From positions 1-27,584 of the IMG/VR virus record IMGVR_UViG_3300030110_001512: DNA of 27,584 nucleotides; one strand, 5' to 3'. The notes under the pieces are model-generated. The model saw only the letters and a list, made by a program, of their open reading frames with translations. It did not search any database and was not told where the DNA came from. This DNA comes from a virus. Numbering within the stretch: position 1 is the stretch's first letter; each line of letters begins with the position of its first letter. Position numbers and translations under genes: made by a program. This document shows positions 7,629-25,705 of the stretch, in pieces.

Positions 7629-8106
7629 AAATAAAATGATATTATTATTTAAAAAAAATGAAGATTGGATAAAAATATGTCAATCATTTGGGTGCGATAA
7701 AAGAACGGCGGAGGATCTTGTACAGGAAATGTATATTAAAATTCAATTAAAACTTGAAAAAGGTTTAAATATTTATTACAATGAAAAAAACGAAATAAAT
7801 TATTATTATATTTTTAAAACTTTAAGAACAATGTTTTTAGATTTAAAACTTAAAACAAAGAATATTAAAATGCAGGAATTTAACAGTAATATTATTGAGG
7901 GGGGTATAACAGATATAAATTATATAAAAAACTATGATATTATTTTAAAAGAGCTTTCAAAAATGTATTGGTATGACCGAAAAGTTTTTGAAATTATTAA
8001 TTCAGGCGAATCAATCGCTGAATTTTCAAGAAAATCTGGAATTGCTTATCACTCCCTTTATAATACATATACTACAGTTAAAAACAAATTAAAAAAATTA
8101 CTATGA
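7621..8106 (+). CDS. Phage ECF-like RNA polymerase sigma factor
   Basis: 161 residues with two domains. Region 2 covers about 11-78: TAEDLVQEMYIKIQ (29-42) matches the core-binding helix, and YYYIFKTLRTMFLDLKLK is at the place of regions 2.3-2.4 (promoter melting and -10 reading). Region 4 covers about 107-160, with a helix-turn-helix SIAEFSRKSGIAYHSLYNTY at 131-150 and a basic end. There is no region 1 or 3, as in ECF factors. It would redirect host polymerase to phage promoters; the CGTTATATA motifs before late genes are candidate targets. Family moderately strong, targets inferred. Confidence 0.75.
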   Translation: MIKNKMILLFKKNEDWIKICQSFGCDKRTAEDLVQEMYIKIQLKLEKGLNIYYNEKNEINYYYIFKTLRTMFLDLKLKTKNIKMQEFNSNIIEGGITDINYIKNYDIILKELSKMYWYDRKVFEIINSGESIAEFSRKSGIAYHSLYNTYTTVKNKLKKLL

Positions 8107-8282
8107 AAAATGATTATTACAGAATTAAATTAGGAAACTTAATTGAGCTAATAATAAAAATTATAACATTAGGGCAAGGTAAAAGAATAGCCTCTTATAT
8201 AGCAAAGAAGGTTGGATATGAAAGTTGTAACTGCGAAAATAGGAAGGAAGCATTGAATAATTTAAAAATAAAAAGATGGTAA
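8103..8282 (+). CDS. 59-residue hypothetical protein with a CNC motif
   Basis: ATG overlaps the sigma stop (ATGA) and the frame ends seven bases into the next gene. The 59-residue product has a helical first half (KLGNLIELIIKIITLGQGKR) and a GYESCNCENRKEALNNL segment. This IxxITxGxGK...CxCxxRxxxLN pattern is familiar from many marine phages, where it is annotated as hypothetical. The tight overlap on both sides supports it. Two close Cys could bind metal as a dimer, which is inference. Confidence 0.7.
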   Translation: MKNDYYRIKLGNLIELIIKIITLGQGKRIASYIAKKVGYESCNCENRKEALNNLKIKRW

Positions 8283-8488
8283 CCAAATTAAAAAAAGATG
8301 ACTATAAAAAATGGACACAATTTCGTATGGGTGAAAAATCAGTCATTACAAAAACAGAACTTGAAATGGTTTCGTACCTCCACTCTAAATACTACAAACA
8401 TTCATATTACATACCTTGTACCTGTTCTCCCAAAACAATAAATAGATGGATAAAAGATCTTAACGTATTGTGGGAAAATGGGGATTAA
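8276..8488 (+). CDS. 70-residue hypothetical protein
   Basis: A basic protein with a WTQFRMGEKS segment, a central ELEMVSYLHSKYY helix, an IPCTCSPKTINRWIKDLN stretch and an acidic end. The CTCSPKTINRWI part looks like a small helix-turn-helix or DNA-binding element and recurs in phage replication regions, usually as hypothetical. It overlaps both neighbours. No firm function. Confidence 0.65.
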   Translation: MVTKLKKDDYKKWTQFRMGEKSVITKTELEMVSYLHSKYYKHSYYIPCTCSPKTINRWIKDLNVLWENGD

Positions 8489-8894
8489 TAAAATACATAA
8501 ATGGGAACAAGCTGTAGTTAACATTTTAAACATCATTGGGTGGGAATTAGAATGGACAGGTAAAAAGTTTGAATCTTGGGATGCTAAAGGTAAAACACCT
8601 AAAGGATTTGATTGTGTAATAGAAATGAAATTTAGGGATAAATACTATGAAGAAAAGCTATTAGAAAAATCTAAGTATGATACATTAATGAAATTACCGA
8701 AAAATATAGTAAAAATTTATTTTGTTAATGATCCTAAAGGTAATTATATGTATTGGCTAAACGAATTAAAAATGCCAAATCTTATTAAATTATATTGTCC
8801 TGACACTTCATTTTGGACAAAAAAAAGGCTTAAAAAAGAAGTTTATTTATTAAAAGAAAATCAAGCAAGTAGAATAAATTTAAATAATAATTAA
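8478..8894 (+). CDS. PD-(D/E)XK-type nuclease
   Basis: 138 residues. Glu10 in the first helix, Asp45 in KGFDCVIEMKFR and the E-x-K pair Glu49/Lys51 form the expected PD-(D/E)XK core (E...D...ExK); helix EKLLEKSKYDTLM follows as usual. Later IVKIYFVNDPKG and MYWLNEL fit the remaining strands. Such small phage nucleases serve as Holliday-junction resolvases or recombination nucleases; which applies here cannot be told. It lies between the sigma/ATPase genes and the exonuclease, so a DNA-processing role is consistent. Confidence 0.72.
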   Translation: MGINKIHKWEQAVVNILNIIGWELEWTGKKFESWDAKGKTPKGFDCVIEMKFRDKYYEEKLLEKSKYDTLMKLPKNIVKIYFVNDPKGNYMYWLNELKMPNLIKLYCPDTSFWTKKRLKKEVYLLKENQASRINLNNN

Positions 8895-8900
8895 AAAAAA

Positions 8901-8928
8901 GTTATTAAATATTTTGTTAATTAATAAA
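8901..8928 (+). repeat. 28-bp repeat, copy 1 (promoter-associated)
   Basis: This 28-bp stretch differs at one position (the fourth) from 13868-13895. It carries the -33 TTG of the promoter at 8914-8943. Confidence 0.8.
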
Positions 8929-8943
8929 AAAGTATTATATTTA
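8914..8943 (+). promoter_or_regulatory. Host-type promoter P1 (TTG-N19-TATATTTA)
   Basis: TTG at 8914-8916, a 19-nt spacer and TATATTTA at 8936-8943 match the Bacteroidetes -33/-7 promoter (TTG / TAnnTTTG) with one -7 mismatch. A second copy with the same -33 region and the same spacer lies at 13881-13910. It lies in the gap after the nuclease gene, 24 nt before the next ATG, and probably drives the exonuclease-to-MazG run. Confidence 0.72.
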
Positions 8944-8967
8944 TACTATAATTAAAAACAAATAATT

Positions 8968-9057
8968 ATGAAAAAGACATTAAAACTTATTGGAGAATTT
9001 ATTTTTGTAGTATCAATATTTGTCCTGTTCTGGGCATCACTATGGATATTTGCATAA
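8968..9057 (+). CDS. 29-residue single-span membrane microprotein
   Basis: ATG right after promoter P1 and an A-rich leader (AAAAACAAATAATT). The product, MKKTLKLIGE followed by an unbroken hydrophobic helix (about 9-29, with two Trp), looks like a minimal membrane protein. Being the first frame in the transcript supports it; the shortness lowers confidence. A role in host takeover would be a guess. Confidence 0.5.
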   Translation: MKKTLKLIGEFIFVVSIFVLFWASLWIFA

Positions 9058-9082
9058 TACAATAACAACTAAAAAAAATAAT

Positions 9083-9226
9083 ATGGTAATAGATAACCAA
9101 ATTTTTCACGCATTTCGACAAAACGAGAAAGAAATTAAAAAAGCTATTAATCTTCTAAAAAAAAATAAATTTACTATATTCGACCCACAAGGAAATAGAG
9201 TATATGAAAAAAAAAAGACAGTATAG
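9083..9226 (+). CDS. 47-residue hypothetical protein
   Basis: Start taken at ATG 9083, preceded by AACTAAAAAAAATAAT, a good A-rich ribosome site; an in-frame TTG at 9020 would read through the previous microgene and is rejected. The product has a helical, Lys-rich first half (RQNEKEIKKAINLLKKNK) and FTIFDPQGNRVYEKK, which suggests a helix plus beta-hairpin fold. Overlaps the next small gene by 23 nt. Function unknown. Confidence 0.6.
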   Translation: MVIDNQIFHAFRQNEKEIKKAINLLKKNKFTIFDPQGNRVYEKKKTV

Positions 9227-9347
9227 AAGTCAACAAGGCAGATCACCAAAGCAAAGAAAAACAAATTATAAATTAATGTTTTACTCCTTGCTTGGTCTGT
9301 TTATAACAATGTTATATATATTTTTAAAATATGGTTTTATTAATTGA
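9204..9347 (+). CDS. 47-residue basic single-span membrane protein
   Basis: The frame starts at ATG 9204 with a strongly basic N-terminus (MKKKRQYRSQQGRSPKQRK) followed by a hydrophobic helix of about residues 24-41, and ends inside the exonuclease gene (17-nt overlap). The inside-positive topology is convincing for a small inner-membrane protein. It fills what would otherwise be a 100-nt gap. Function unknown. Confidence 0.5.
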   Translation: MKKKRQYRSQQGRSPKQRKTNYKLMFYSLLGLFITMLYIFLKYGFIN

Positions 9348-10050
9348 TGCTGATTCCTTAATATTTGCTTCTTGTTATCGGTCTAAAAAAGAATCTAAAA
9401 ATATCCTGGACAAGTTTTATTCTAACATAGAAGATGCTATTGTTAAGTTTGATGAGCAGTATATGAAAATTGTAAACGACTTAGAAGAACATTTTGAAAT
9501 TAATGAAATTATTACATTCAATGGATGCAAAGGAAACTTTAGAAAACAAATAACAAAGAAGTATAAGGCTAATAGAAAAAAGCAAGATTTGCCACCGCTC
9601 CTTCACGAAATGCACGACTATGTTAAAAAGAACTATAATAGTATATATGGGTTTGGAATAGAAACCGACGATCTTGTAGCAAAATATTGGTATGAAATAA
9701 GCAATAGTATTGGGAGAGAAGAAGTAATGATAGTATCAATAGACAAGGACTATAAACAGTTTCCCTGCTTAATATATAATTATCATCATAAGCATAAAAA
9801 AATAATAGACATAAGTTTAGATGAAGCTCTATACAATTTTTACGAACAAATGATAGTAGGAGATACAGCAGACAATGTAAACTACTTTAAAGGAAAAGGA
9901 AAAGCATTTGCAAAAAAGTATTATAAGGATTGTAAAACAAAGTATCAATACACTAAACAACTATACAACTTATTTAAAGAAATATACAAAGGCAAAGCGA
10001 GACAGAAGTATGTAGAATGTTATAACCTTTTAAAATTAAGAGAAAGATGA
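9331..10050 (+). CDS. 5'-3' exonuclease (FEN / T4 RNase H-like)
   Basis: 239 residues with the FEN/PIN metal site in order: Asp6/Asp8 (LIDADS), the basic arch region FRKQITKKYKANR (about 70-82), Glu111/Asp113/Asp114 (ETDDLVAKY), Asp138/Asp140 (SIDKDYKQ) and Asp178/Asp181 (VGDTADN) before the H3TH-type KGKGKAFAKK. It would remove RNA primers or process 5' ends during phage replication. Overlaps the DnaA-like gene by ATGA. The family call is firm; the exact substrate is not. Confidence 0.88.
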   Translation: MVLLIDADSLIFASCYRSKKESKNILDKFYSNIEDAIVKFDEQYMKIVNDLEEHFEINEIITFNGCKGNFRKQITKKYKANRKKQDLPPLLHEMHDYVKKNYNSIYGFGIETDDLVAKYWYEISNSIGREEVMIVSIDKDYKQFPCLIYNYHHKHKKIIDISLDEALYNFYEQMIVGDTADNVNYFKGKGKAFAKKYYKDCKTKYQYTKQLYNLFKEIYKGKARQKYVECYNLLKLRER

Positions 10051-10527: not shown

Positions 10528-10731
10528 ATGAAAAAAAAAGAAATACAATTTAGAGATCCAGTAGTAGAAAGAGTAGTTGACAAATTTATTTCACGCTCTG
10601 ATACAGGTTTTAAAAAGTATGGCGTTACTATGGATAAGGACACACTATCAAAAAAAGAATGGCTTAATCATTTACAAGAAGAATTAATGGATGCTATATT
10701 ATATATACAAAAATCCAAAGAAATTTTATGA
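10528..10731 (+). CDS. Small NTP pyrophosphohydrolase-like protein (all-alpha type)
   Basis: 67 residues: RSDTGFKKYGVTM then WLNHLQEELMDAILYIQK, with Glu51, Glu52 and Asp55 as the ExxxD-type acidic cluster of all-alpha (MazG-like) nucleotide pyrophosphatases. It resembles the short phage dATP/dGTP-pyrophosphohydrolase-like family, though only half of the usual metal site is obvious. It overlaps the thymidylate-synthase homologue by 4 nt, so nucleotide metabolism is likely. Substrate unknown. Confidence 0.68.
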   Translation: MKKKEIQFRDPVVERVVDKFISRSDTGFKKYGVTMDKDTLSKKEWLNHLQEELMDAILYIQKSKEIL

Positions 10732-11483
10732 GTAGTTTTGAAAAAAAGTATAAAAAAATATTATTAGAATGTTTAAATAAAGGGGAAGAATGTTCTAATA
10801 GAACCGGTGTAAATACATTTAAGTTATTTAATAAATCATTTAATATTAATTTAAATAAAGGTTTTCCTATTGTCACAGGAAAAAAAATATTTTTTGATAA
10901 AGCCCTTGCCGAATTTAGGTGGATGTTTGAGGGTAGAACAGACATTACTTATTTAAATAATCACAATATAAGATGGTGGGATGATTATACTAGCACGAAT
11001 GATTTGGGCAAGGTTTATGGCTACCAAATAAGAAATTATAATAACAACATAGATCAAATTAAATATGTTGTTAAAGAGATTAAAAACAATTCTCGCCGTG
11101 CTATAATAAATTTATGGAATCCCAGCGATCTGCAAGATCAGGCGTTACCTTGTTGTTTTACTCAATTTAATTTTGTACGAGCAAATAATAAATTAAGTAT
11201 GAGTATAAATTTTAGAAGCTCAGATTTATTTTTAGGATTACCTTACGACATAGTTATTGGTTCTTTATTTTTAATTACAATAGCTAAAAAAACAAATTTA
11301 TTACCAAACTTTTTAGGAATTAATTTAATAGATGCACATATATATAAATCGCATATAGATCAAACATTAAAATATTGTAAAAACAAAATATATAAACTTC
11401 CTTTTTTACAAGGCAAATACGAAGACTATAATTTAATAAATTACAATTGTAATAATTATATAAAAGCGGAGTTAATTAAATAA
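10728..11483 (+). CDS. Thymidylate synthase-superfamily enzyme, likely dCMP hydroxymethylase
   Basis: 251 residues across the full ThyA fold. Matching E. coli ThyA residues: Arg25 (RTGV), Glu62, the VYGYQ segment, Arg123/Arg124 (SRRAI), catalytic Cys142 (LPCC), RSSDLFLGLPYD at 163-174, His204/Tyr206 (DAHIY). At the place of Asn177, which selects uracil in thymidylate synthases, there is Asp174 (codon GAC at 11247-11249). The same Asn-to-Asp change marks T4 dCMP hydroxymethylase (Asp179) and shifts thymidylate synthases toward dCMP. So dCMP is the more likely substrate. Pyrophosphatase-type genes lie on both sides. The superfamily is certain; the dCMP preference is inferred from one key residue. 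Confidence 0.85.
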   Translation: MSSFEKKYKKILLECLNKGEECSNRTGVNTFKLFNKSFNINLNKGFPIVTGKKIFFDKALAEFRWMFEGRTDITYLNNHNIRWWDDYTSTNDLGKVYGYQIRNYNNNIDQIKYVVKEIKNNSRRAIINLWNPSDLQDQALPCCFTQFNFVRANNKLSMSINFRSSDLFLGLPYDIVIGSLFLITIAKKTNLLPNFLGINLIDAHIYKSHIDQTLKYCKNKIYKLPFLQGKYEDYNLINYNCNNYIKAELIK

Positions 11484-11493
11484 ATTTAAAATT

Positions 11494-11592
11494 ATGAATA
11501 AAAATATGGAATACATTTTAGTATTATGGCCAGATAGTCAAGAACATTACGACAGCTCATACTTTGCATCTAAACATAGATTAACTAATTAA
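11494..11592 (+). CDS. 32-residue hypothetical microprotein
   Basis: ATG after AAATTTAAAATT, 32 codons to TAA, with a second ATG at codon 5. The product contains YILVLWPDSQEHYDSSYF; short phage proteins beginning with a similar V-x-WPxSQ segment are familiar from marine phages. It fills the gap between the hydroxymethylase-like gene and the GIY-YIG/MazG gene. Function unknown, and it may be a remnant of a longer protein. Confidence 0.45.
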   Translation: MNKNMEYILVLWPDSQEHYDSSYFASKHRLTN

Positions 11593-11600
11593 TTTTTTTA

Positions 11601-12329
11601 ATGTATTATATATACCACATTAAAGGAATCAAAATAGGTTGTACTACTAATCCTGTTGAGAGGGTAGAAAAAAAACAGGGGTATACAAATTACGACATAC
11701 TATATACAACAAATAATATACAAGAAGCTTCAGACAAAGAGTTAGAGCTACAAACTAAATACAATTATAAACAGGATAAAAAACCATATAAAGAAGTAAT
11801 TATGAATATTAAAAACAAATTTTACATAACAGACAAAACAGTTACATTAAATAATACGTTTGATAAAGATTTAACAGGATTTGAATTTCCTGATTATATT
11901 GCTTATGAGGATAAAAAAATATATTTTACAAAAGAATTAATTACTTGGATAAAAAATAATAATATTAAATCTCAAAATGATAATAAAAGATATGTATATA
12001 GAAATCCCTTTGAAAAAGCCTCTAACAATAATTTAGAAACAATATTTGATAAAATAAGAAATTGGGCTGAAGTTAGAGAAATATATAAAAAAGGCAATTC
12101 TCATACCCAATATGTTAAACTGCAAGAAGAATGTGGAGAGCTTGCAAAAGCTATATTAAATAAAGACAGATCCGAAGCCGTCGACGCTATAGGCGATATT
12201 GTAGTGGTTTTAACAAATTTAGCCTACTTTGAAGATTGCACAATTGAAGAATGCATTGAGTCAGCTTATAATGTTATTAGTAAACGCAAGGGCAAAATGA
12301 TAAATGGAACATTTGTAAAAAATAAATAA
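11601..12329 (+). CDS. GIY-YIG-like / MazG-type NTP pyrophosphatase fusion
   Basis: 242 residues. The N-terminus (about 1-62) looks like a T5orf172/GIY-YIG nuclease: MYYIYHIKGIKIGCTTNP (start YIYHI, then KIGCT), Arg21 and an acidic helix DKELELQTKYNY carrying the probable catalytic Glu. The middle (about 70-145) is not recognised. The C-terminus (about 150-242) is MazG-like: EECGE at 176-180 and EAVDAIGD at 192-199 form the metal-binding ExxE...ExxD set. It would hydrolyse NTPs or dNTPs to monophosphates. Last gene of its run before the late motif at 12346. Confidence 0.78.
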   Translation: MYYIYHIKGIKIGCTTNPVERVEKKQGYTNYDILYTTNNIQEASDKELELQTKYNYKQDKKPYKEVIMNIKNKFYITDKTVTLNNTFDKDLTGFEFPDYIAYEDKKIYFTKELITWIKNNNIKSQNDNKRYVYRNPFEKASNNNLETIFDKIRNWAEVREIYKKGNSHTQYVKLQEECGELAKAILNKDRSEAVDAIGDIVVVLTNLAYFEDCTIEECIESAYNVISKRKGKMINGTFVKNK

Positions 12330-15801: not shown

Positions 15802-16361
15802 TGAAGTATAACAATCTAGAAAAAGCAATAGAGAAATATGCAAAGTATGTAGTACAGCAATCTAAGTCAAACTTGACTAGAGATAAAAAAGGTGGTGGTG
15901 ATTTATACAACTCTATTTCTTATGATCTTGATGTTGAAACAAATGCTTTTTTACTAGACTTCCTTATGGATGATTATGGTGCTTTTGTTGACAAAGGGGT
16001 AAGAGGTAAGAATCCTAGTAAGGTTTCACCTAATGCTAAACTTAGAGGACAACAAGCTCCTAATTCACCATTCAAGTTTGGTAGTGCAAACTATGCTGGT
16101 ACTTGGAAAACCTTTTTAAAGAGTATAGAGGGATGGGCAAAAAGCAAGAACATAAGATTTAGAGATGAGAAAGGAAAATATAAAGAGGGAGATTATAAAA
16201 GCCTTGCATATGTAATTGCAGGTAATATCTACAATAGAGGTTTAAAAGCTAATATGTTTTTTTCAAAACCTTTTGAATCAGGATTACAAAAGTATGGAGA
16301 TGACTTCTTAGAAGGCTTCATTTTAGATATAGAAAGACAAACAATATTCGGACAAAAATAA
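15801..16361 (+). CDS. HK97 gp10-like head-tail connector protein
   Basis: 186 residues. The motif YGAFVDKGVRG (about 53-63) is the hallmark of the HK97 gp10-like family, after an N-terminal helix with TRDKKGGGDLYNSISY. A long insertion (about 63-125) follows, and GLKANMFFSKPFESG leads into the C-terminal helix. Family members sit at the head-tail joint or help tail completion. It starts in the last base of the previous stop. Good family match; exact place in the particle not provable here. Confidence 0.75.
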   Translation: MKYNNLEKAIEKYAKYVVQQSKSNLTRDKKGGGDLYNSISYDLDVETNAFLLDFLMDDYGAFVDKGVRGKNPSKVSPNAKLRGQQAPNSPFKFGSANYAGTWKTFLKSIEGWAKSKNIRFRDEKGKYKEGDYKSLAYVIAGNIYNRGLKANMFFSKPFESGLQKYGDDFLEGFILDIERQTIFGQK

Positions 16362-16367
16362 ACAACT

Positions 16368-17372
16368 ATGGCATTAATAGCATTAAGAAGCCCACAATAT
16401 AAATACATAACAATACCTGCATCAGGGGTGTTATCAGCTAAGTGTACAATTACAATAGCTGGAACATTAAGATATACATTAGTAAAAAACACAACTCCTA
16501 GTACAGGATGCAATTTTGATATATCAGAACTGGTAAGAGATTATTTAAGTATTACTTATTCAACATCTTATGCTGTAGATAGTATAGCTATTGTAACTGT
16601 ATTACAAAATTACAGCTCTTTAAATGCTGGTAGTGGCGATGAGGTTGGTAGTGCTGTAACATATACCGATACAGGTTTTGAAGCATATGGAGAATTTATG
16701 GAACAATCAAATCCAACAATTCCATTTAGAACAAAACCAAGTTGGTTAATAGCATCACAAAATTTAAGTGCAAGTGAAAGTTTTGAAATCTTTGTTCCAA
16801 CAGGTATAAGTGGATATGTTCCATTTGTAAGAGGTAATGATACAGTAGGAACTGTTTCGTATAATACAACAGATACTTCTAAAACAGAAGATGGAGTAGC
16901 TTTAACAATAACTAGAATAGATTGTACTAAATATGGAGATGGTATAAAAGCAATATTTATAAATAGATATGGAGTTCAACAAGATTTATGGTTTTTCTTA
17001 AAACAAGTTAAATCATTAAATAGAACAAATGAATCTTTCCAATCTAATACAATAGAATATCCAGATGATGAAGCAGCAGTATATAGTACAGCAGTTGCAC
17101 CTAAAAAAGTATTTAACACACAAGCAACACAATCTCATAGTTTAAATTCTGGTTACTATCCAGAATGGGCAAACCAATATTTTGAAGAACTATTATTAAG
17201 TGAATATGTTTGGTTACAATTACCAAGAAAAGAAACTCCTACTTTATTTTATACAACCCCTGTAAAAGTAAAAACATCAAGTATGTTATTCAAAACATCT
17301 GTTAATGATAGATTAATCCAATATACAATAGAATTTGAGGAAGCATTTGACCATATACAAAATGTTAGATAA
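16368..17372 (+). CDS. Putative distal tail / minor tail protein
   Basis: 334 residues, beta-rich, with little charge: ALIALRSPQYKYITIPAS at the start, repeated GT-rich strands, INRYGVQQDLWFFLKQVKSLN at about 200-220, and a C-terminal part with LLLSEYVWLQLP. The NRYGxxQDxWFF segment is familiar from Bacteroidetes phage tail-tip proteins. It lies before the hub-like gene and tape measure, so a baseplate/distal-tail role is likely, but no defined family is proven. It ends exactly where the next begins. Confidence 0.6.
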   Translation: MALIALRSPQYKYITIPASGVLSAKCTITIAGTLRYTLVKNTTPSTGCNFDISELVRDYLSITYSTSYAVDSIAIVTVLQNYSSLNAGSGDEVGSAVTYTDTGFEAYGEFMEQSNPTIPFRTKPSWLIASQNLSASESFEIFVPTGISGYVPFVRGNDTVGTVSYNTTDTSKTEDGVALTITRIDCTKYGDGIKAIFINRYGVQQDLWFFLKQVKSLNRTNESFQSNTIEYPDDEAAVYSTAVAPKKVFNTQATQSHSLNSGYYPEWANQYFEELLLSEYVWLQLPRKETPTLFYTTPVKVKTSSMLFKTSVNDRLIQYTIEFEEAFDHIQNVR

Positions 17373-19445
17373 ATGCAAAAACTTCAATTATATATAGGAA
17401 CTGAAAGGGTAGATTTATTCAAAGATGAAACAGTAAGTCTTACACAAACTATTCAAAATGTAAAAGACATTAGTAAAATATTTACTGAATTTAGTAAAAC
17501 TTTTTCATTACCAGCTTCAAAAGTAAACAACAAAATATTTAAACATTATTACAATTTTGATATTGATGGTGGTTTTGATGCTAGAAATAAAGTTGCTGGT
17601 AAATTAGAATTAAATACAATACCATTTAAAGAGGGTTTTATACGATTAGAGGGTGTTGATTTAAAAAAAAATGTACCTCATACTTATAAGATTACTTTTT
17701 TTGGGAATACAATTAATTTAAAAGATGTGCTTGGTGATGACCAGTTATCAACTTTAGGAGGATTAAATACTAGTAATTCATTAGATTATACATTTGCTAA
17801 TATAAAAAGCAAATTAACAAATAATCCTACAACTAATATATGCGCACCTTTAATAACACATACAAGAAGATTATATTTCGATTCAGCTGGAACAGGTGAT
17901 GGTAATGTTGATTGGGATAGTGCAACCAGTGTTAATGGTGTTTATTGGAACGATTTAAAATTTGCGATACGTTTACAAGCTATAATAGATGCAATAGAAG
18001 CACAAACAAATTATGGATTAACATTTAGTAATGATTTTTTTAACGATAGTTCTAATACTGCATTTTATAATTTATGGATGTGGTTACATAGAAAAAAAGG
18101 AAGCGTTGAGCCAACAGGACAATTATCTTTAAATTTTGTTCAAGTTCAAAACCTTGGTAAAATTTCTGGTAATACAGGTTATACAACAGAGATAGCTGGT
18201 ATTTTAACTTTAGCAAGTGTAAGTGGCAATATACATTATGTACAAACAGATTTAGATATAACTCCTACTGCCAATAATGTTGATTATAGTATAAGGGTTT
18301 TTAGAAATGGTGCACAAATTGCAGAAAGGTTAAATGTTCAAGGTCCTCAACAATTATTTGCCACCTCATCAACTAGGTTGGGTGCTGGTAGTTATACTAT
18401 TGAAATAGCTTCAATCGCAGGTATTACTTTTAATACTAATAATATTAAATGGACTATTGCTGTTGCTGATTTAAGTCCAGGCGGAGGTGGTGGTGCTGAC
18501 CTTTGGGGTAATGGTCAACAATTTTCAACAAGTTCAACTATTGAATTTATTATAACTCAACAAATACCAGAAATGTCTATTATAGATTTCTTAACAGGTA
18601 TTTTTAAAATGTTTAATCTTACAGCGTATGTAGACAATACAGGAACAATTGTAGTTAGAACTTTAGATAGTTATTATGCTGCTGGAAAAGGTACTTTAGC
18701 AGGTACTACTCCTTGGAATATAGACCAATATTTAGATGTAACAAAATCTACAGTTGATGTAGCTTTACCTTTTAGGGAAATAAAATTTGCTTATAAAGGA
18801 TTAGGAACTTTTTTAGCTAAACAATTTTATCAAGTCAATAACTTAACTTGGGGAACAAACAAATATACTTTAGGTGATGATGTATATGATGCACCTACTG
18901 CAGTTTATAATGTACAATTACCATTTGAGCACGTTATGTATGAAAGATTGTTTAATGTAGCAACAAACGCTGCAACATCTGTTCAATATGGGTATTTTAC
19001 AGATGACAATCAACAACCCTATTATGGTTCGCCTTTAATTTTTTATGCTGTATATATTCAAAATGGAGATGATATATCTTTGAAAGAATCAGCAAACGAC
19101 AATGACCAAATAAATGATTATATTATTCCATCTAATAGCTTAGCAATAAGTGCTTCAACAAGTAAGGTAAATATAAATTTTGGTGCTATGGTAAATGAAT
19201 ATGACCCTAACAACCCATTTACAGATACTTTATTTAGTAGTTATTATGAAACTTACATAGCAGATGTATTTAATTTAAAAACAAGATTAACAAAAGTTCA
19301 AGCAATGTTACCCTTAAAAATGTTATATAATTTACAATTAAATGATAAAATTCAATTTCAACAAAATAATTATAAAATAAATTCTATAACAACAGATTTG
19401 ACAACAGGTAAAAGTAGTATCGAATTATTAAATGTAGTACAATGA
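17373..19445 (+). CDS. Putative tail-tip / baseplate hub protein
   Basis: 690 residues. The N-terminus, YIGTERVDLFKDETVSLTQ then FTEFSKTFSLPASK and FDIDGGFDARNKV, is a conserved block of tail-tip proteins in Bacteroidetes phages; later YKITFFGNTINLKDVLGDD follows. A middle region (about 250-385) is Thr/Asn-rich and ends in a Gly run (GGGGGAD near 370), probably an inserted loop or surface domain; the C-terminal part (LKMLYNLQLNDKIQFQQNNY) resembles tail-associated hub ends. It probably links the tape measure with the fibres. Role inferred from place and block similarity. Confidence 0.6.
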   Translation: MQKLQLYIGTERVDLFKDETVSLTQTIQNVKDISKIFTEFSKTFSLPASKVNNKIFKHYYNFDIDGGFDARNKVAGKLELNTIPFKEGFIRLEGVDLKKNVPHTYKITFFGNTINLKDVLGDDQLSTLGGLNTSNSLDYTFANIKSKLTNNPTTNICAPLITHTRRLYFDSAGTGDGNVDWDSATSVNGVYWNDLKFAIRLQAIIDAIEAQTNYGLTFSNDFFNDSSNTAFYNLWMWLHRKKGSVEPTGQLSLNFVQVQNLGKISGNTGYTTEIAGILTLASVSGNIHYVQTDLDITPTANNVDYSIRVFRNGAQIAERLNVQGPQQLFATSSTRLGAGSYTIEIASIAGITFNTNNIKWTIAVADLSPGGGGGADLWGNGQQFSTSSTIEFIITQQIPEMSIIDFLTGIFKMFNLTAYVDNTGTIVVRTLDSYYAAGKGTLAGTTPWNIDQYLDVTKSTVDVALPFREIKFAYKGLGTFLAKQFYQVNNLTWGTNKYTLGDDVYDAPTAVYNVQLPFEHVMYERLFNVATNAATSVQYGYFTDDNQQPYYGSPLIFYAVYIQNGDDISLKESANDNDQINDYIIPSNSLAISASTSKVNINFGAMVNEYDPNNPFTDTLFSSYYETYIADVFNLKTRLTKVQAMLPLKMLYNLQLNDKIQFQQNNYKINSITTDLTTGKSSIELLNVVQ

Positions 19446-19585
19446 TAAAAAATATAATAGATTTATTGCATTTAAGTGTAGGGGAAACTGAAAACATTAA
19501 AATAGCAAAAGGTAAATATGCTTTACCAAAAGATTTTAAAACTGCTATGAAACAAATAAAAACAAATATCAAATGGCAACAGTAA
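19442..19585 (+). CDS. 47-residue hypothetical protein between hub and tape measure
   Basis: ATG overlaps the hub stop (ATGA) and the TAA lies 13 nt inside the tape-measure gene. The product contains LLHLSVGE and IKIAKGKYALPKDFKTAMKQIK and ends NIKWQQ; KGKYxLPxDFxxAxxxxK is a pattern I recall from small proteins at the same place in flavobacterial phages. Double overlap supports coupled translation. Possibly a tape-measure chaperone or tail-tip part; not proven. Confidence 0.6.
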   Translation: MIKNIIDLLHLSVGETENIKIAKGKYALPKDFKTAMKQIKTNIKWQQ

Positions 19586-21669
19586 CTAAAGAATATGATT
19601 TAAAAATATCAACTAAACAAGCACAAGCTAATATAGATGAATTAAATAAATCGTTAGAATTACAAGAAACATTAATTGATGATATTGAAAAAGAATTAAG
19701 ACAATATCAAAAAGAATTAAATAAAACCTCTGCAAAAGATTTATCTAAACGACAAAAATTAAACGATAAAATTAAACAAACTAAAGAAAGATTAGTTGAC
19801 GAAAAAGTTGCTTTAAAACAAGTTAACAAAGACAGAAAGAAAGCTAACGAGGTAATGAAAGAATCTGAAAAAAATGCAGCAGATTATTCTGGTGTATTAG
19901 GAACAATAGATTCACAAACAGGTGGTGCTATATCAGGGTTTACTAATTTAACTAAAACAATTGGCGGAGCAACAAAAGGTTTTGGATTGATGGGTAAAGC
20001 TATTATGGCAACAGGATTAGGTGCTTTAGTGTTAATAGTTTCATCTCTTGGTGCAGCATTTACAGGTTCAGAGGAAGGACAAAACAAATTTGCAAAAATA
20101 ATGAGTGTTATTGGTGCTTTAACTGGTAACCTTGTTGATTTATTAGCAGATTTAGGTGATGCTATTATTAGTGCTTTTGAAAATCCAGTAGAATCTTTAA
20201 ATTCTTTTGTTGATTTATTAAAAAATAACTTAATAACAAGATTTGAGGGTTTATTAAATCTTATACCTAATTTAGGTAGAGCAGTTGAACAATTATTTAA
20301 AGGTAATTTTTCAGAAGCAGGTAAAATTGCAGCTGATAGTGTAGGTCAAGTTGTTTTAGGTGTTGAAAGTGTAACTGATACTGTTGCTAATGCTACAAAA
20401 GCAGTAAAAGAATTTACAGCAGAACAAATCAAAGAGGGTAAAGCAGCAGCAGAAGTTGCTGATATGAGAGCAAAAGCTGATAAAATAGAAAGAGCATTAA
20501 TAGTTGATAGAAGTAAATTAGAATCAGAAATAGCATTATTAAGATTAAAATCAAGAGAAGAAGAAAAATTTAGTGCAGCTGAAAGAAAACAAGCATTATT
20601 AGATGCACAAGCATTAGAAGACCAATTATTAGACAAAGAAACAGAATTTTTAGAATTAAGGCGTGATGCACAAATGTTAGAAAATACATTTAGTAGAACA
20701 AACAAAGAAAATTTAACTAAAGAAGCAGAAGCAATAGCAGCAGTAAATAGACAACAAGCAGCTAGAGCAAATACTGCTAGACAACTACAAAGAGAAGTAA
20801 ATACTATATCAAAACAAATAACAGCAGAAGAAAAAGCAGAAGCAACTGAACTTGCTAATTTTAGAAAGTCTTTAAGAGATGCAGAAGCAGTTTCAGAAGA
20901 AGATAGACGAGCATTGGAATTAATTAAAATACAAGAACATTACGATGCTTTAATATTACAAGCAGAAGAAAATAATGTTAATACAGATGCTTTAAATGAT
21001 GCAAGACAATTAGCTTTGGCTGAAAAACAAGCTGCTTTTGATGCAACAGATTTAGAAAGAAAAAAGAAAATAGCAGATGATGAAGCAGCTATTGAACAAG
21101 CTAAAGAAGATAGAAGACAAGCAACATTTGATAATGCAGTTGCATTAGCTGGTGAAGAAACTAAATTAGGTAAAGCATTATTATTAGCTAAACAATTTTT
21201 ATTAGCTAAAAATTTTATAATGGATGCTAAAGCTTCTATAATGAACGCTAAAAAAGCAACTACTGACGCTGTTGTTACAGGTGCAGAAGCAAGTACTGAA
21301 GTATCAGGTTCAGTTGCAAAAGCGGCAAATACAGCACCACCACCATTTAATATTCCTTTTATATTAACAGCAATAGCAACAGGTGTTAGTATTATTAGTG
21401 CAGTAAAATCAGCAGTTGGTTCTACTAAAAAAGCAGCAGCAGCAGCAGGTGGTTCAAGTGGAGGGGGTACTGTTCCATCACCAGCATCAGTAACACCATC
21501 AGCAGCACCACCAGCGTTTAATATAGTGGGTTCTAGTGGTACTAATCAATTAGCAGATGCTATTGGTGGTCAAACACAACAACCTATACAAGCATTTGTT
21601 GTAGCAAGTGATGTAACAACTGCACAAAGTTTAGAAAGAAATACTATTGAGGGAGCAACCATAGGATAA
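19573..21669 (+). CDS. Tape measure protein
   Basis: 698 residues. Long coiled coil at about 10-105 (QANIDELNKSLELQE...), a hydrophobic segment at about 141-163 (GKAIMATGLGALVLIVSSLG), further helical, Ala/Glu/Lys-rich coiled coil at about 280-530, another hydrophobic stretch at about 590-615 and an Ala/Ser/Pro-rich, low-complexity end. This is the normal composition of tape measures, which set tail length and may leave through the membrane with the DNA. By the rule of about 0.15 nm per residue the tail would be near 100 nm. It is short for a siphovirus and has no visible lysozyme domain. Confidence 0.88.
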   Translation: MATVTKEYDLKISTKQAQANIDELNKSLELQETLIDDIEKELRQYQKELNKTSAKDLSKRQKLNDKIKQTKERLVDEKVALKQVNKDRKKANEVMKESEKNAADYSGVLGTIDSQTGGAISGFTNLTKTIGGATKGFGLMGKAIMATGLGALVLIVSSLGAAFTGSEEGQNKFAKIMSVIGALTGNLVDLLADLGDAIISAFENPVESLNSFVDLLKNNLITRFEGLLNLIPNLGRAVEQLFKGNFSEAGKIAADSVGQVVLGVESVTDTVANATKAVKEFTAEQIKEGKAAAEVADMRAKADKIERALIVDRSKLESEIALLRLKSREEEKFSAAERKQALLDAQALEDQLLDKETEFLELRRDAQMLENTFSRTNKENLTKEAEAIAAVNRQQAARANTARQLQREVNTISKQITAEEKAEATELANFRKSLRDAEAVSEEDRRALELIKIQEHYDALILQAEENNVNTDALNDARQLALAEKQAAFDATDLERKKKIADDEAAIEQAKEDRRQATFDNAVALAGEETKLGKALLLAKQFLLAKNFIMDAKASIMNAKKATTDAVVTGAEASTEVSGSVAKAANTAPPPFNIPFILTAIATGVSIISAVKSAVGSTKKAAAAAGGSSGGGTVPSPASVTPSAAPPAFNIVGSSGTNQLADAIGGQTQQPIQAFVVASDVTTAQSLERNTIEGATIG

Positions 21670-21672
21670 ATA

Positions 21673-21700
21673 CAAAATCAAATTAAAATTACGTTATATA
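21673..21700 (+). promoter_or_regulatory. Late-motif copy 3 before the protease
   Basis: CGTTATATA at 21692-21700, with CAAAATC starting 19 nt upstream (21673). The protease ATG is 3 nt downstream. The 19 nt before the motif resemble those of copy 4. Confidence 0.72.
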
Positions 21701-21703
21701 AAT

Positions 21704-22309
21704 ATGAAAATTATAGAATTAATATTAGACGAAGAACAAGAAGAAAGTGGAATTGATGCTATATCTATAGTAGAAAACCCAGCTATTGAATCAGATTTTG
21801 TTGCTTTAAGTAAACAAAAAGAATTTAAATTAGCAGAAATAGATGCTGAAAAGCAAATATTACTTGGTGCTTTACTTATTCCAAATAAAACAATATTTAG
21901 AACAGGTGCAGAGGGAGATTATTATATATATTTTTCACGAGAAACTGTAGCCAAAGCAAGTCAATTATATTTAACTAGAGGAAAACAAAACAATTCAACA
22001 CTAGAACATCAACATTCTTTAAATGGATTAACATTAGTAGAAAGTTGGTTAGTTGAAGACAAAGTTCACGATAAATCAAGAAAATATGGATTAGATGTTC
22101 CGTTAGGTACTTGGATGGGTGCAGTTAAAGTTAATAATAAAGAAGTTTGGAATGAATATGTTAAAACAAATAAAGTTAAAGGTTTTTCTATTGAGGGTTA
22201 CTTTGCAGACAAAATGGAAAGACCTAAAGAAAGCGTTGAAGAAAAAATGGCAGATACTATTTTAATTGAAAAAATAAAAGAAATATTATCATCAGATGCA
22301 AAGAAATAG
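21704..22309 (+). CDS. XkdF-like prohead serine protease (S78_2)
   Basis: 201 residues of the XkdF-type phage protease: SGIDAISIVENPAIESDFV at the N-terminus is the family entry motif (D-A-I-S-x-V-x-x-P-A-I), STLEHQHSL (98-106) contains the probable catalytic His, and KVKGFSIEGYF (157-167) the probable catalytic Ser162. The C-terminal tail is charged and helical. It would mature the prohead by cleaving scaffold and capsid. The acidic scaffold candidate and major capsid gene follow. Active-site assignment is by analogy. Confidence 0.83.
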   Translation: MKIIELILDEEQEESGIDAISIVENPAIESDFVALSKQKEFKLAEIDAEKQILLGALLIPNKTIFRTGAEGDYYIYFSRETVAKASQLYLTRGKQNNSTLEHQHSLNGLTLVESWLVEDKVHDKSRKYGLDVPLGTWMGAVKVNNKEVWNEYVKTNKVKGFSIEGYFADKMERPKESVEEKMADTILIEKIKEILSSDAKK

Positions 22310-22457
22310 AAAACAATCAACTTACATTCCAAGTCGTACATCTCCCAGAGGAAGTGGTAGGGCTTGTTTATGTAAAGATACAAATACCTATTCACGAAAA
22401 TGTTGTGATGGGGATATTTGGGCGCAAGGTATTGGCGTAATTACAAGAATAAATTAA
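22296..22457 (+). CDS. 53-residue Cys-rich basic microprotein
   Basis: ATG 22296 lies inside the protease end (14-nt overlap); the frame runs 53 codons to TAA at 22457. The product has a basic N-terminus (MQRNRKQSTYIPSRTSPRG), CLC and KCC pairs (Cys24, 26, 36, 37) and DIWAQGIGVI. The ACLCKDTxTYSRKCCDGxxxAQGIG pattern is one I recall from small genes in flavobacterial phage structural regions. It may bind zinc; function unknown. It fills the otherwise empty gap before late motif 4. Confidence 0.68.
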   Translation: MQRNRKQSTYIPSRTSPRGSGRACLCKDTNTYSRKCCDGDIWAQGIGVITRIN

Positions 22458-22467
22458 TGCTTAAATG

Positions 22468-22495
22468 CAAAATCAAAATTAATAATCGTTATATA
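22468..22495 (+). promoter_or_regulatory. Late-motif copy 4 before the scaffold
   Basis: CGTTATATA at 22487-22495 with CAAAATC starting 19 nt upstream (22468). The scaffold ATG is 7 nt downstream. Confidence 0.72.
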
Positions 22496-22502
22496 TATAA
22501 TT

Positions 22503-23135
22503 ATGAAATCAAGTGAAATGCTAAATCAAATTAAAACACTTCTTAATATCGAAGTTAAATTCGAAGAAATGAAGTTAGAAAATGGTACAGTTGTCGAGGC
22601 TGAATCTTTTGAAAAAGGAAAAGAAATTTTCATAAAAACAGATGATGAAAAAGTAGCTATGCCAGTTGGCGAATATATACTTGAAGATTCTCGTTTGTTA
22701 GTTATAGAAGAAGAAGGAATTATTGCAGATATGAGAGAAGTATCTGATGAAGTTCCTGAAAAAGAATCTGCAGAAGAAGAAGAAATTACTGAAGATTTAA
22801 AAGATGAAGAATACAAAGAAGAAGATGAAGAAGATGAAGATAAAAAGAAATATGAAGATGATGAAGCTGATGTAGGTGATTGGAAAGGAATGGAAAAAAG
22901 AATTAAAAACTTAGAGGATGCAATTGCAGACTTAAAGTCAAGATTTAGCGATAAAGAGGAAATGGGAGAAGATAATAAAGGGTTAAAATCAAGAACAGTA
23001 AAAGAAGAATTTTCTGAAGCAGCTGTAAAACCAATCAAACATAATCCAGAAATTAAAGAAGTTGAAAAAAGGGTATTTGCTAAAAGTAAAACACGCACAA
23101 CTTTAGATAGAGTATTAAATAAATTAAATAAATAA
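22503..23135 (+). CDS. Putative head scaffolding protein
   Basis: 210 residues. A beta-like N-terminal part (about 10-80: LNIEVKFEEMKLENGTVVEA...) is followed by an extremely acidic stretch (about 85-125, mostly Glu/Asp with Lys) and a helix MEKRIKNLEDAIADLKSRF that looks like a coiled coil; the end is basic (TRTTLDRVLNKLNK). Acidic, helical, with a basic C-terminus that can dock on the capsid protein, directly between protease and capsid genes: this is the usual scaffold profile. Family not identified, so the role is inferred. Confidence 0.75.
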   Translation: MKSSEMLNQIKTLLNIEVKFEEMKLENGTVVEAESFEKGKEIFIKTDDEKVAMPVGEYILEDSRLLVIEEEGIIADMREVSDEVPEKESAEEEEITEDLKDEEYKEEDEEDEDKKKYEDDEADVGDWKGMEKRIKNLEDAIADLKSRFSDKEEMGEDNKGLKSRTVKEEFSEAAVKPIKHNPEIKEVEKRVFAKSKTRTTLDRVLNKLNK

Positions 23136-23142
23136 AAAAAAT

Positions 23143-23562
23143 ATGAGTTCATACAGTTATACTTCAAATGATGATGTAAAAGTTCAAGTTTCACAAAAAA
23201 CATTGACTGCATCAGTTTCTGTACCTGCAGGAGATGCTGGTATAGACCACAATATTGCAACCGATGCTTTAGTAATGAGTTTACCAAAGATTGGTTCTGG
23301 AAATTTAGGAATGACTTTCTTATTTAGAAACACAGGTGCAGATGGAAATAACATTATTACGTTATCACCAGATTCAGCTGATTCTTTTAACGGAAGTATT
23401 GCAAACGCAGCAGCAGATTCAGTAGCTGGTGGTGTTGCAGGTAAAGATTGGATTAACACAAAGGCAACAGCAAACAACGGAGATTACGTTGTTATTAGAG
23501 CAGTAGCATTAACAAAATGGTACATTGTAGGTGGTGTTGGAGTTTGGGCATCCGAAGCATAA
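23143..23562 (+). CDS. Putative head decoration protein
   Basis: 139 residues, beta-rich, small side chains and no long helix: VSVPAGDAGIDHNIATDALVMSLPKIG, FLFRNTGADGNNIITLSP, and a C-terminal WYIVGGVGVW. It lies 7 nt after the scaffold and 25 nt before the major capsid protein, the classic position of capsid decoration or cement proteins. No defined family recognised; assignment by position and composition. Confidence 0.55.
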   Translation: MSSYSYTSNDDVKVQVSQKTLTASVSVPAGDAGIDHNIATDALVMSLPKIGSGNLGMTFLFRNTGADGNNIITLSPDSADSFNGSIANAAADSVAGGVAGKDWINTKATANNGDYVVIRAVALTKWYIVGGVGVWASEA

Positions 23563-23587
23563 TATTAATTAAATAAAAAAAAAAAAG

Positions 23588-24568
23588 ATGAGTAATTTAA
23601 AAAATGTAAATCTAGGTACCACTGCTAATATTACGACGACGTATGCCGGCGAATTTGCGGGTGAGTATATAGCGGCAGCACTTCTTTCGGCAAGTACAAT
23701 TGATGATGGAGGTTTATCTGTAAAAGCAAATATAGCATACAAAGAAGTAATCAAAAAATTAGCTACTGGTAATTTAGTAAGTCCAGCATCTTGTGATTTT
23801 GACCCAAATTCTTCTATTACATTAACAGAAAGAATAATTCAACCAACTGAATTACAGGTTAATTTACAATTATGTAAAAAAGACTTCGTGAATGATTGGG
23901 AAAGTCAGCAAATGGGCTATGGAATGGGACAATCATTACCACCGAAATTTGCAGATTTTATGATTGCTCACGTAGCAGCAGAAGTAGCACAATCAACTGA
24001 ATTTAATATTTGGCAAGGTGATACAGCAGCAGCTTCTAATAATTCTTATGATGGTTTTTCTAAACTAATTGCAGCATCAGTTGCAGCAGGAGATGTTCCA
24101 GCAGGTCAATCAGTAGCAGCAGTTGGTGGTGGATTAAGCGCAGCGAATATCATTGCAGAATTATCGAAAGTAGTAGATGCTATTCCAGGCGCATTATACG
24201 GAAAAGAAGATTTATATATCTATATTCCAAGTAGTGCCGCTAAATTTTATGTTCAAGCTTTAGGTGGTTTTGCAGCAGCAGGATTAGGAGCAAATGGTGT
24301 AAATGCACAAGGAACACAATGGTGGAATAATGGTTCATTATCTGTAAACGGGGTGAAGATTTTTGTTTGTCCAGGAATGGCTGACGATAAAATGTACGCA
24401 GCACAAAGAAGTAATTTATATTTCGGTACTGGTTTACTGAATAATATGAATGAAGTAAAAGTTTTAGATATGCAAGACCTTGACGGAAGTCAAAATGTAA
24501 GAATGATTATGAGATTTACGGCTGGAGTCCAGTTTGGAATCGCATCAGATTTAGTTTCTTACGCATAA
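23588..24568 (+). CDS. Major capsid protein
   Basis: 326 residues. Begins after an unusually A-rich leader (AAATAAAAAAAAAAAGATG), suitable for very strong translation in Bacteroidetes. It contains ITERIIQPTELQVNLQLCKKDF-like segments (in the protein LTERIIQPTELQ then NLQLCKKDF), an Ala/Gly-rich middle (VPAGQSVAAVGGGLSAANI), and VNGVKIFVCPGM, a pattern of HK97-fold capsid proteins of Bacteroidetes phages. The first codons contain rare C/G-rich triplets (ACG ACG ACG, GCC GGC). A terminator follows. Position after protease and scaffold fits. Confidence 0.85.
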   Translation: MSNLKNVNLGTTANITTTYAGEFAGEYIAAALLSASTIDDGGLSVKANIAYKEVIKKLATGNLVSPASCDFDPNSSITLTERIIQPTELQVNLQLCKKDFVNDWESQQMGYGMGQSLPPKFADFMIAHVAAEVAQSTEFNIWQGDTAAASNNSYDGFSKLIAASVAAGDVPAGQSVAAVGGGLSAANIIAELSKVVDAIPGALYGKEDLYIYIPSSAAKFYVQALGGFAAAGLGANGVNAQGTQWWNNGSLSVNGVKIFVCPGMADDKMYAAQRSNLYFGTGLLNNMNEVKVLDMQDLDGSQNVRMIMRFTAGVQFGIASDLVSYA

Positions 24569-24589
24569 TAAATTAATTAACCAATAAAC

Positions 24590-24624
24590 AAAGGTAGGTG
24601 GGTTATATCTACTTACCTTTTTTT
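24590..24624 (+). terminator. Intrinsic terminator after the major capsid gene
   Basis: AAAGGTAGGTGG (24590-24601) pairs with CTACTTACCTTT (24609-24620, two G-T wobbles) around a 7-nt loop, followed by T to 24624. The next ATG is at 24646 with no promoter motif between, so partial read-through is implied. Confidence 0.85.
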
Positions 24625-24645
24625 ATAAAATAAAATAAAAATACT

Positions 24646-25176
24646 ATGGCTTGTACATTATCTACAGGAAGAAAAGTACCTTGTAAATCGGCATTTGGTG
24701 GAATTAAAAGTGTTTGTTTTGCTGACTTTGGAACTATTGCTAGTGTAGCAGTAGATTCTACAACAAAAGTAGCAACAATTACAAATGGTTCGCCAGCACC
24801 AGTTTGGTACGAATATGATGTAAAAGGTAATTCATCTTTAGAAACTACAGTAACAAGTTCTAGAGAAAATGGTACTACTTTTTACACTCAAACATTAAAT
24901 TTAACATTAACTTATTTAGATGCTAAAACACAAGCAGAGCTTCAAGTTCTTGCAGTAGCTAGACCATATGCTGTAGTACAGGATTACTATGGAAATCATT
25001 TCCTTTGTGGATTTGAGAATGGAATGGAAGTTACAGGTGGAACAGTTGTTACAGGAGCAGCAGCAGGGGATTTAAGTGGGTTTACTCTTACATTTGAAGG
25101 AATGGAAGAAACAGCACCTTATTTCTTAGGCGCAGGAGTTACTCCAGCAGCAGGTCAAATTGACCCAACAGCTTAA
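24646..25176 (+). CDS. Putative major tail tube protein
   Basis: 176 residues: MACTLSTGRKVPCKSAFGGIKSVCFADFGT, then beta-rich Thr/Ser segments, an EYDVKGNSSLETTVTSSRENGTTFY strand pair, LNLTLTYLDAKTQAELQVLA and a C-terminal FTLTFEGMEETAPYF. The CK(D/S)xxGGIK start and the strand-helix-strand order resemble tail tube proteins of Bacteroidetes siphoviruses. It lies between two terminators just after the capsid gene, as would fit an abundant virion protein. Role inferred. Confidence 0.65.
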   Translation: MACTLSTGRKVPCKSAFGGIKSVCFADFGTIASVAVDSTTKVATITNGSPAPVWYEYDVKGNSSLETTVTSSRENGTTFYTQTLNLTLTYLDAKTQAELQVLAVARPYAVVQDYYGNHFLCGFENGMEVTGGTVVTGAAAGDLSGFTLTFEGMEETAPYFLGAGVTPAAGQIDPTA

Positions 25177-25198
25177 TCTAAATTAAGTTTAAAAAATT

Positions 25199-25226
25199 AA
25201 GCATCCTTTATGGGTGCTTTTTTTTT
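25199..25226 (+). terminator. Intrinsic terminator after the tail tube candidate
   Basis: AAGCATCC (25199-25206) pairs with GGGTGCTT (25212-25219, one G-T wobble) around a TTTAT loop, with an uninterrupted T run to 25226. Confidence 0.88.
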
Positions 25227-25241
25227 GCTCTTTTGTTTTTA

Positions 25242-25269
25242 CAAATTACATACTTTATTACGTTATATA
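25242..25269 (+). promoter_or_regulatory. Late-motif copy 5 before the portal module
   Basis: CGTTATATA at 25261-25269 with CAAATTA starting 19 nt upstream (25242). The ATG is 4 nt downstream; a terminator lies just before, so a new promoter is expected here. Confidence 0.7.
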
Positions 25270-25273
25270 AGTA

Positions 25274-25705
25274 ATGATTATATTAACAACATCAGCAGCA
25301 GCACAAACATTGTCTGTAATACCTAGAAGTTATCCTAGTACATTTACAATGGATGTTAGAGATGACAGTACAAATGTTACTGTACCCTATGGTGTTACAA
25401 CAGCTACTACTTCAGGTAATTATCTTACATTTAATAATGCATTTAATCCTATTTTAGTAGAAAACCATTTTTATGATATACATTTATATGCAGATTTTAA
25501 TTATTGGAATACTAATTACAGCTTTTGGAACTTATATGATGAGGTCTGGCAAACAGATGCAAATCAAAAAGAAGACATATATAGAGATAGAATTTTCTGT
25601 ACAGACCAAGACATAGACCAATTAAATGATAATGATCATTATGAAATAAATAAAAATCAATATACCCAATATAATGGCTACAATAATGATTACCTTGTAA
25701 TATGA
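25274..25705 (+). CDS. Small structural protein candidate upstream of portal
   Basis: 143 residues: a hydrophobic/beta-rich N-terminal half (LTTSAAAQTLSVIPRSYPSTFTM...), FNPILVENHFYDIHLYADF, and an acidic C-terminal half with YRDRIFCTDQDIDQLND and YEINKNQYTQYNGYNNDY. The V-x-x-x-FYxLxV...YRDRIFxTxQ-like pattern is familiar from small Bacteroidetes phage proteins near the portal, which I take as virion parts; proof is lacking. It shares ATGA with the portal start. Confidence 0.6.
   Translation: MIILTTSAAAQTLSVIPRSYPSTFTMDVRDDSTNVTVPYGVTTATTSGNYLTFNNAFNPILVENHFYDIHLYADFNYWNTNYSFWNLYDEVWQTDANQKEDIYRDRIFCTDQDIDQLNDNDHYEINKNQYTQYNGYNNDYLVI

Follow-up and report, generated by a model that had tools for sequence, protein, structure and literature searches.

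A predicted dCMP methylase of the thymidylate synthase family, encoded beside a MazG-type gene in an unnamed clade of marine phages

The thymidylate synthase homologue encoded in a 27,584-base viral contig from IMG/VR (the whole of this stretch is referred to as the window) carries Asp at the dUMP/dCMP selector position, Asn177 in E. coli ThyA. We observed a characteristic set of active-site residues and their conservation among phages, a thymidylate-synthase tail and fold, and a recurrent gene linkage. Our preferred reading, to which we give about even odds (a probability of roughly 0.5), is that this enzyme is a dCMP C5-methylase evolved within the thymidylate synthase family, that a MazG-type enzyme supplies its dCMP, and that 5-methyl-dCTP enters the phage DNA. 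MetaGPA has already revealed Asp177 enzymes in phages whose cytosine is modified (PMC8670742); the present analysis adds a coherent clade in which the thymidylate-synthase cycle is intact, the linkage of this clade to MazG, and a caution on the anti-restriction explanation.

Results

Gene and genomic context

The terminase of the window phage shares 55% identity with its counterpart in the flavobacterial Nonlabens phages P12024L/S. The features discussed below are the following.

10528..10731, plus strand: 67-aa conserved protein (HLQEELMDAILYI) with an HLQEELMDA motif, matching PHROGs of unknown function
10728..11483, plus strand, ATG to stop: 251-aa member of the thymidylate synthase family, with Asp in place of Asn177, predicted to methylate dCMP
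11145..11147, plus strand: codon of Leu140, the Cys-3 position (Asp/Glu in hydroxymethylases), from the alignment and the signature in PMC6400193
11154..11156, plus strand: codon of Cys143, most likely the catalytic nucleophile (E. coli Cys146), from the alignment; invariant in the aligned set
11247..11249, plus strand: codon of Asp174 (E. coli Asn177, T4 gp42 Asp179), the dUMP/dCMP selector, from the alignment
11460..11480, plus strand: C-terminal tail IKAELIK, aligned with E. coli IKAPVAI (residues 258-264)
11601..12329, plus strand: MazG-type NTP pyrophosphohydrolase (C-terminal domain) with an N-terminal extension; Pfam MazG above cut-off, phrog_715 at 2e-29

A Pfam profile search assigned the 10728-11483 protein to PF00303 over its whole length (E 1e-62), and we agree with the earlier note on this DNA that an automatic annotation would name it ThyA. 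The stop codon of the 67-aa gene overlaps the synthase start (ATGA), and the MazG-type gene begins 117 bases past the synthase stop. Positions 11494-11592, between the latter two genes, form an open frame of 32 aa (MNKNMEYILVLWPDSQ...).

Active site

Asp174 lies in the block RSSDLFLGLPYDIV (residues 163-176) and aligns with Asn177 of E. coli ThyA and Asp179 of T4 gp42, as had been proposed; the same alignment bears out the retention of Glu62, Arg123/124, His204 and Tyr206. The catalytic cysteine, formerly placed at Cys142, has to be moved by one residue: when the stretch from the active-site Cys to Arg163 is aligned without gaps, Cys143 matches E. coli Cys146 and Cys142 the preceding Pro145, so that on this alignment the nucleophile is probably Cys143. 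Phe144 stands at the position of E. coli His147, where most relatives have Tyr; Tyr is found at the position of Phe176, Phe at that of Gln165, and Tyr87 at that of Trp83, which also varies among phage enzymes with Asn at the selector (Asn-type). Of the marks of a dUMP thymidylate synthase, the window enzyme lacks Asn177 and His147 and keeps the C-terminal tail. One mark of the T4 gp42 type, Asp at position 179, is present as Asp174, and so is that of dCMP methylases of the Xp12 or N229D type, namely an Asp selector without Asp/Glu at Cys-3.

Conservation of the selector and phylogeny

Asp was found in 14 of 14 relatives collected by a search that did not use this residue, and at all 107 loci with the clade motif LPCC[YF], a pattern without the Asp position (some contigs are counted twice among the 107). 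Since the residue is fixed in relatives and both of its codons are used in the clade (GAT 75, GAC 14), a sequencing error or chance change is excluded. The same Asp is present in the more distant named phage MedDCM-OCT-S28-C10 (L015), the enzyme of which is 55% identical. In a sample of 117 phage thymidylate synthases that was neutral with respect to Asp or Asn, 107 carried Asn and 10 carried Asp; Tyr at position 176 accompanied Asp in 9 of these 10 and occurred in a single one of the 107 Asn-type sequences.

In the tree, the clade has support 100/99 and stands apart from gp42 and the enzyme of phage DLP4, both of which form long branches. A second Asp-type clade, with the motif PPCH[YH] and His147 kept (L036, L044, L052, L086 and relatives), may be its sister, judging from these sequences. 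The full tree has two Asn-to-Asp changes, but independent origins are not claimed: once the long branches are taken out, the Asp types with a tail all group together (support 85). Each record holds one synthase, and neither a second thymidylate synthase nor ThyX was found in the same records. A scan of bacterial genomes gave one match (L281, 33%). At one locus (L058, record G020:1333-2038) the synthase gene gives two separate matches, with a TAA in frame, and probably contains a frameshift or is broken.

Substrate

An Asn-to-Asp change at position 177 turns thymidylate synthase into a dCMP methylase with the product 5mdCMP, and such mutants of characterised enzymes lose their dUMP preference (PMC8670742). 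The same work ranked 177 and 147 first among the positions by which synthases from modified-cytosine phages can be told from other thymidylate synthases (PMC8670742). Since Asp occupies the former and Phe or Tyr the latter, the best reading of the sequences is that the window enzyme very probably acts on dCMP. The preference for dCMP over dUMP expressed in the earlier note is thus supported, at the level of sequence, by the fixed Asp177, the loss of His147 and the presence of Tyr176. The enzyme could also be an ordinary thymidylate synthase acting on dUMP, or one acting on both dUMP and dCMP, that tolerates Asp177; this would agree with the overall fold, the tail and the best sequence matches, all of which are those of thymidylate synthases, and with the position of this protein as the sole synthase in these records. 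We nevertheless regard this alternative as quite improbable: Asp is fixed at 107/107 loci where Asn is near-universal in ordinary phage enzymes, it is accompanied by changes at 176 and at 147, a residue that contacts the base on its C4 side, and the characterised Asn-to-Asp mutants behave as described above (PMC8670742).

Methylation or hydroxymethylation

In T4 gp42, Asp145, located three residues before the Cys, activates the attacking water and pairs with Ser94; Asn at this position leaves no product, and gp42 is without the C-terminal tail by which thymidylate synthase is closed for hydride transfer (PMC6400193). The hydroxymethylase signature accordingly consists of Asp/Glu at Cys-3 and Ser/Thr two residues before a conserved Tyr (PMC6400193). 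Both parts are absent from the window enzyme, which has Leu140 at the first position and Lys95, two before Tyr97, at the second. Its tail IKAELIK is kept and ends exactly where E. coli IKAPVAI ends. Among 97 Asp-type sequences, position 143 of the E. coli enzyme (Cys-3) is occupied by Leu in 94 and Ile in 2, with a gap in the remaining one. The signature is visible where it is present, as demonstrated by an enzyme of an uncultivated phage from the neutral sample (L253) with Asp at 143, Thr at 147 and no tail; the other nine Asp-type enzymes of that sample have Leu at 143.

The AlphaFold model of the window enzyme has a mean pLDDT of 85, with low values for the last residues. Among solved structures it is matched best by true thymidylate synthases, along its entire length (E. 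coli ThyA, Z 31.5, 245 aligned residues). T4 gp42 is missing from the 50 structural matches listed, an absence that is no argument against a resemblance. Because of Leu140, Lys95, the full tail and the fold match, methylation is likelier than hydroxymethylation, and on present sequence evidence the protein is more likely to be correctly described as a predicted dCMP methylase than as the "likely dCMP hydroxymethylase" of the earlier note, where the methyl product figured only as an alternative.

A hydroxymethylase of the gp42 kind, making 5-hydroxymethyl-dCMP and hence 5hmC in phage DNA, appears improbable to us. The equivalent of Asp179 is conserved together with the catalytic Cys, Glu, Arg pair, His and Tyr, and the replacement of Trp83, the shield of the E. 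coli ThyA active site, by Tyr is a mixed sign in its favour. However, an Asp-to-Asn change at Cys-3 is already sufficient to abolish hydroxymethylation by gp42 (PMC6400193), and here the acidic residue is replaced by Leu140; Ser/Thr94 is replaced by Lys95, the tail is retained, and both structure and tree put the enzyme with thymidylate synthases and not with gp42, although gp42 is a very long branch in the tree.

A Tet/JBP oxygenase partner, which would convert 5mC to 5hmC, was found in none of 40 Asp-type records and in none of the control genomes; the Pfam model used does find the family in P12024L. This phage, which has the closest terminase (L280), carries at 7672-9934 a Tet/JBP oxygenase and a TET-associated glycosyltransferase adjoining a DNA methylase, a set that is another route to modified cytosine. 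P12024L is also free of GGCC (0 vs 23 expected).

The MazG-type partner

The MazG-type protein of the window scores 24 bits with PF03819 (cut-off 22) and carries the EExxE...ExxD motif (EECGE...EAVDAIGD). Its N-terminal part (11601-12080, MYYIYHIKGIKIGCTT...) looks GIY-YIG-like, with no more than a weak Pfam hint (MUG113, E 0.042). Neighbourhoods were counted at 89 clade loci with distinct enzymes, part of which came from an Asp-specific scan. A MazG-type gene lies within 4 kb of the synthase at 85 of the 89 clade loci and at 21/27 other Asp-type loci, compared with 0/108 Asn-type loci; it nearly always follows the synthase on the same strand, and at 83 of the 89 loci it is at most 300 bases away. 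The family of the 67-aa protein shows a similar exclusion, being present near 26/89, 21/27 and 0/108 loci, respectively. When the whole record is considered, Pfam MazG occurs in 19/20 Asp-type vs 4/20 Asn-type records, the latter being mostly longer and having their MazG at least 7 kb from the synthase.

Relatives of the window MazG are common in phages (1002 phage records), with no such synthase known there. The linkage may be inherited rather than repeatedly selected, because the tail-bearing Asp types may share one origin (support 85, see above). As to specificity, a cyanophage MazG prefers dGTP and dCTP (PMC6850273), and human DCTPP1, a MazG relative, hydrolyses 5-methyl-dCTP better than dCTP (PMC4491611).

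Near the gene, a deoxynucleotide kinase was not found except in the L015 type, and a T4-type dCTPase (gp56) was found nowhere in the window's clade. dCMP deaminase was rejected as a constant partner, as only the L015 type has it. The gene run in L015 consists of pyrophosphohydrolase, kinase, synthase and deaminase, and DLP4 has DHFR, dCMP deaminase, Asp177 synthase and pyrophosphohydrolase side by side; the same kind of gene set is thus found in two other phage families.

Restriction sites and the fate of the product

CATG is absent from the window, where 86.5 +/- 8.6 sites are expected from dinucleotide shuffles and 69 from a Markov estimate, and 26 other clade loci also lack it where at least 8 are expected. 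This points strongly to selection by a host enzyme that cuts CATG. Over the 89 clade loci the observed-to-expected ratio is 0.41 for CATG and 0.65 for GATC, compared with 0.82 and 0.85 in Asn-type phages. Within the window, GATC is missing from positions 15928-25633 (9.7 kb, structural genes) and occurs 29 times before that stretch.

Since this avoidance of CATG and GATC is strong, full restriction protection is unsupported for the window's clade. The avoidance does not fit restriction-shielded DNA unless the enzymes concerned ignore 5mC, and, as an indirect proxy, it counts against the suggestion of the earlier note that modified cytosine serves as an anti-restriction measure, at least in the sense of complete protection. 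Xp12 DNA is still cut by several enzymes (PMC7653180), so 5mC would protect only against some of them. A post hoc grouping of restriction sites by adenine-methyl or C5-methyl class seemed to speak for 5mC in the DNA; it depended on AGCT alone and was dropped. In the other Asp-type clade, C-containing palindromes are hardly avoided (0.91 overall), and this clade, with PPCH[YH] and the same MazG partner, is a good candidate for truly modified DNA.

The GC content is 0.297 in the window and 0.297 as the clade median, 0.343 in other Asp-type and 0.39 in Asn-type phages. Because these phages are AT-rich, use of 5-methyl-dCMP as a dTMP precursor is a serious alternative, if an unlikely one. MazG would convert dCTP to dCMP, the synthase homologue would make 5-methyl-dCMP, and a dCMP deaminase of host or phage would yield dTMP, so that cytosine nucleotides are turned into thymidine nucleotides for an AT-rich genome and the DNA has no unusual base. 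Consistent with this are the low clade median GC, the dCMP deaminase genes adjoining the Asp-type synthase in L015 and DLP4, the single synthase per record without ThyX, and the persistence of restriction-site avoidance. On the other hand, 19/20 Asp-type records have no deaminase (these are fragments, and hosts have their own), none is seen in the window, and in environmental phages Asp177 is statistically associated with DNA in which cytosine is modified (PMC8670742).

Discussion

For the substrate, the product, the specificity of the MazG-type enzyme and the fate of the product, we infer the following scheme, which corresponds to the preferred reading of a dCMP methylase feeding phage DNA. 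Asp174 would read and protonate N3 and receive the cytosine 4-amino group, Cys143 would attack C6, and methylene-tetrahydrofolate would donate the one-carbon unit. Since the thymidylate-synthase tail closes the site and Leu140 replaces Asp, the reaction would end with hydride transfer from the folate, giving 5-methyl-dCMP and dihydrofolate, instead of water attack leading to 5-hydroxymethyl-dCMP. The downstream MazG-type enzyme would hydrolyse dCTP to dCMP, both feeding the methylase and lowering unmodified dCTP, like T4 gp56. Phosphorylation, probably by host kinases, would then give 5-methyl-dCTP for incorporation into phage DNA, as in Xp12.

Extended to the whole group, the proposal is that a large unnamed marine phage clade, far from Xp12, has natural dCMP methylases with an unmodified thymidylate-synthase cycle, a MazG-type dCTPase cassette, and genomes with 5-methylcytosine or with thymine made via 5-methyl-dCMP; we advance it tentatively, with confidence slightly short of even. 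If it is true, many of the phage genes annotated as "ThyA" have been given the wrong substrate (in the neutral sample, about one in twelve), and the tail together with residue 143 would give a simple sequence rule for distinguishing dCMP methylases from hydroxymethylases. The MazG partner would suggest a dCTPase-methylase cassette analogous to T4 gp56 and gp42, and it would become possible to test for marine phages whose cytosine is completely 5-methylated or whose thymine is made via 5-methyl-dCMP.

Comparison with known systems

T4 gp42 shares with the window enzyme the Asp selector and the catalytic Cys/Glu/Arg/His/Tyr set, but it is only about 20% identical, has Asp145, Ser94 and Val85, lacks the tail and makes 5hmdCMP. 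The engineered enzymes L. casei N229D and E. coli N177D are alike in the Asp selector, Leu at Cys-3 and the intact C-terminal tail. In contrast to them, the window enzyme is natural, is encoded beside a MazG-type gene and has further replacements (Pro145 to Cys, His147 to Phe/Tyr, Phe176 to Tyr, Gln165 to Phe).

The MetaGPA synthases (PMC8670742), likened here by description, resemble the window enzyme in Asp177, an altered residue 147 and their origin in environmental, partly coastal, phages; modified cytosine was shown experimentally for the MetaGPA contigs, whereas the window contig is known from sequence alone. The closest named relative is ThyA of MedDCM-OCT-S28-C10 (Votkovvirus; 55%), which has the same PCC[YF], LPYD and tail and an NTP pyrophosphohydrolase nearby, but belongs to another phage family, and its gene run also includes a kinase and a dCMP deaminase.

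Finally, in Xp12 5mC replaces all C (PMC7653180). Its close relative DLP4 (PMC9206674, PMC7653180) stands in for Xp12 (MT664984) in our comparisons. The Xp12 relatives DLP4 and AXL1 have Asp at 177, no Asp/Glu at 143, and a pyrophosphohydrolase beside the synthase, as in the window. The DLP4 enzyme differs in being 27% identical to that of the window, with Asn at 143 and Pro at 147, in forming a separate branch of the tree, and in being accompanied by DHFR and dCMP deaminase. The Xp12 group is the closest experimentally modified group.
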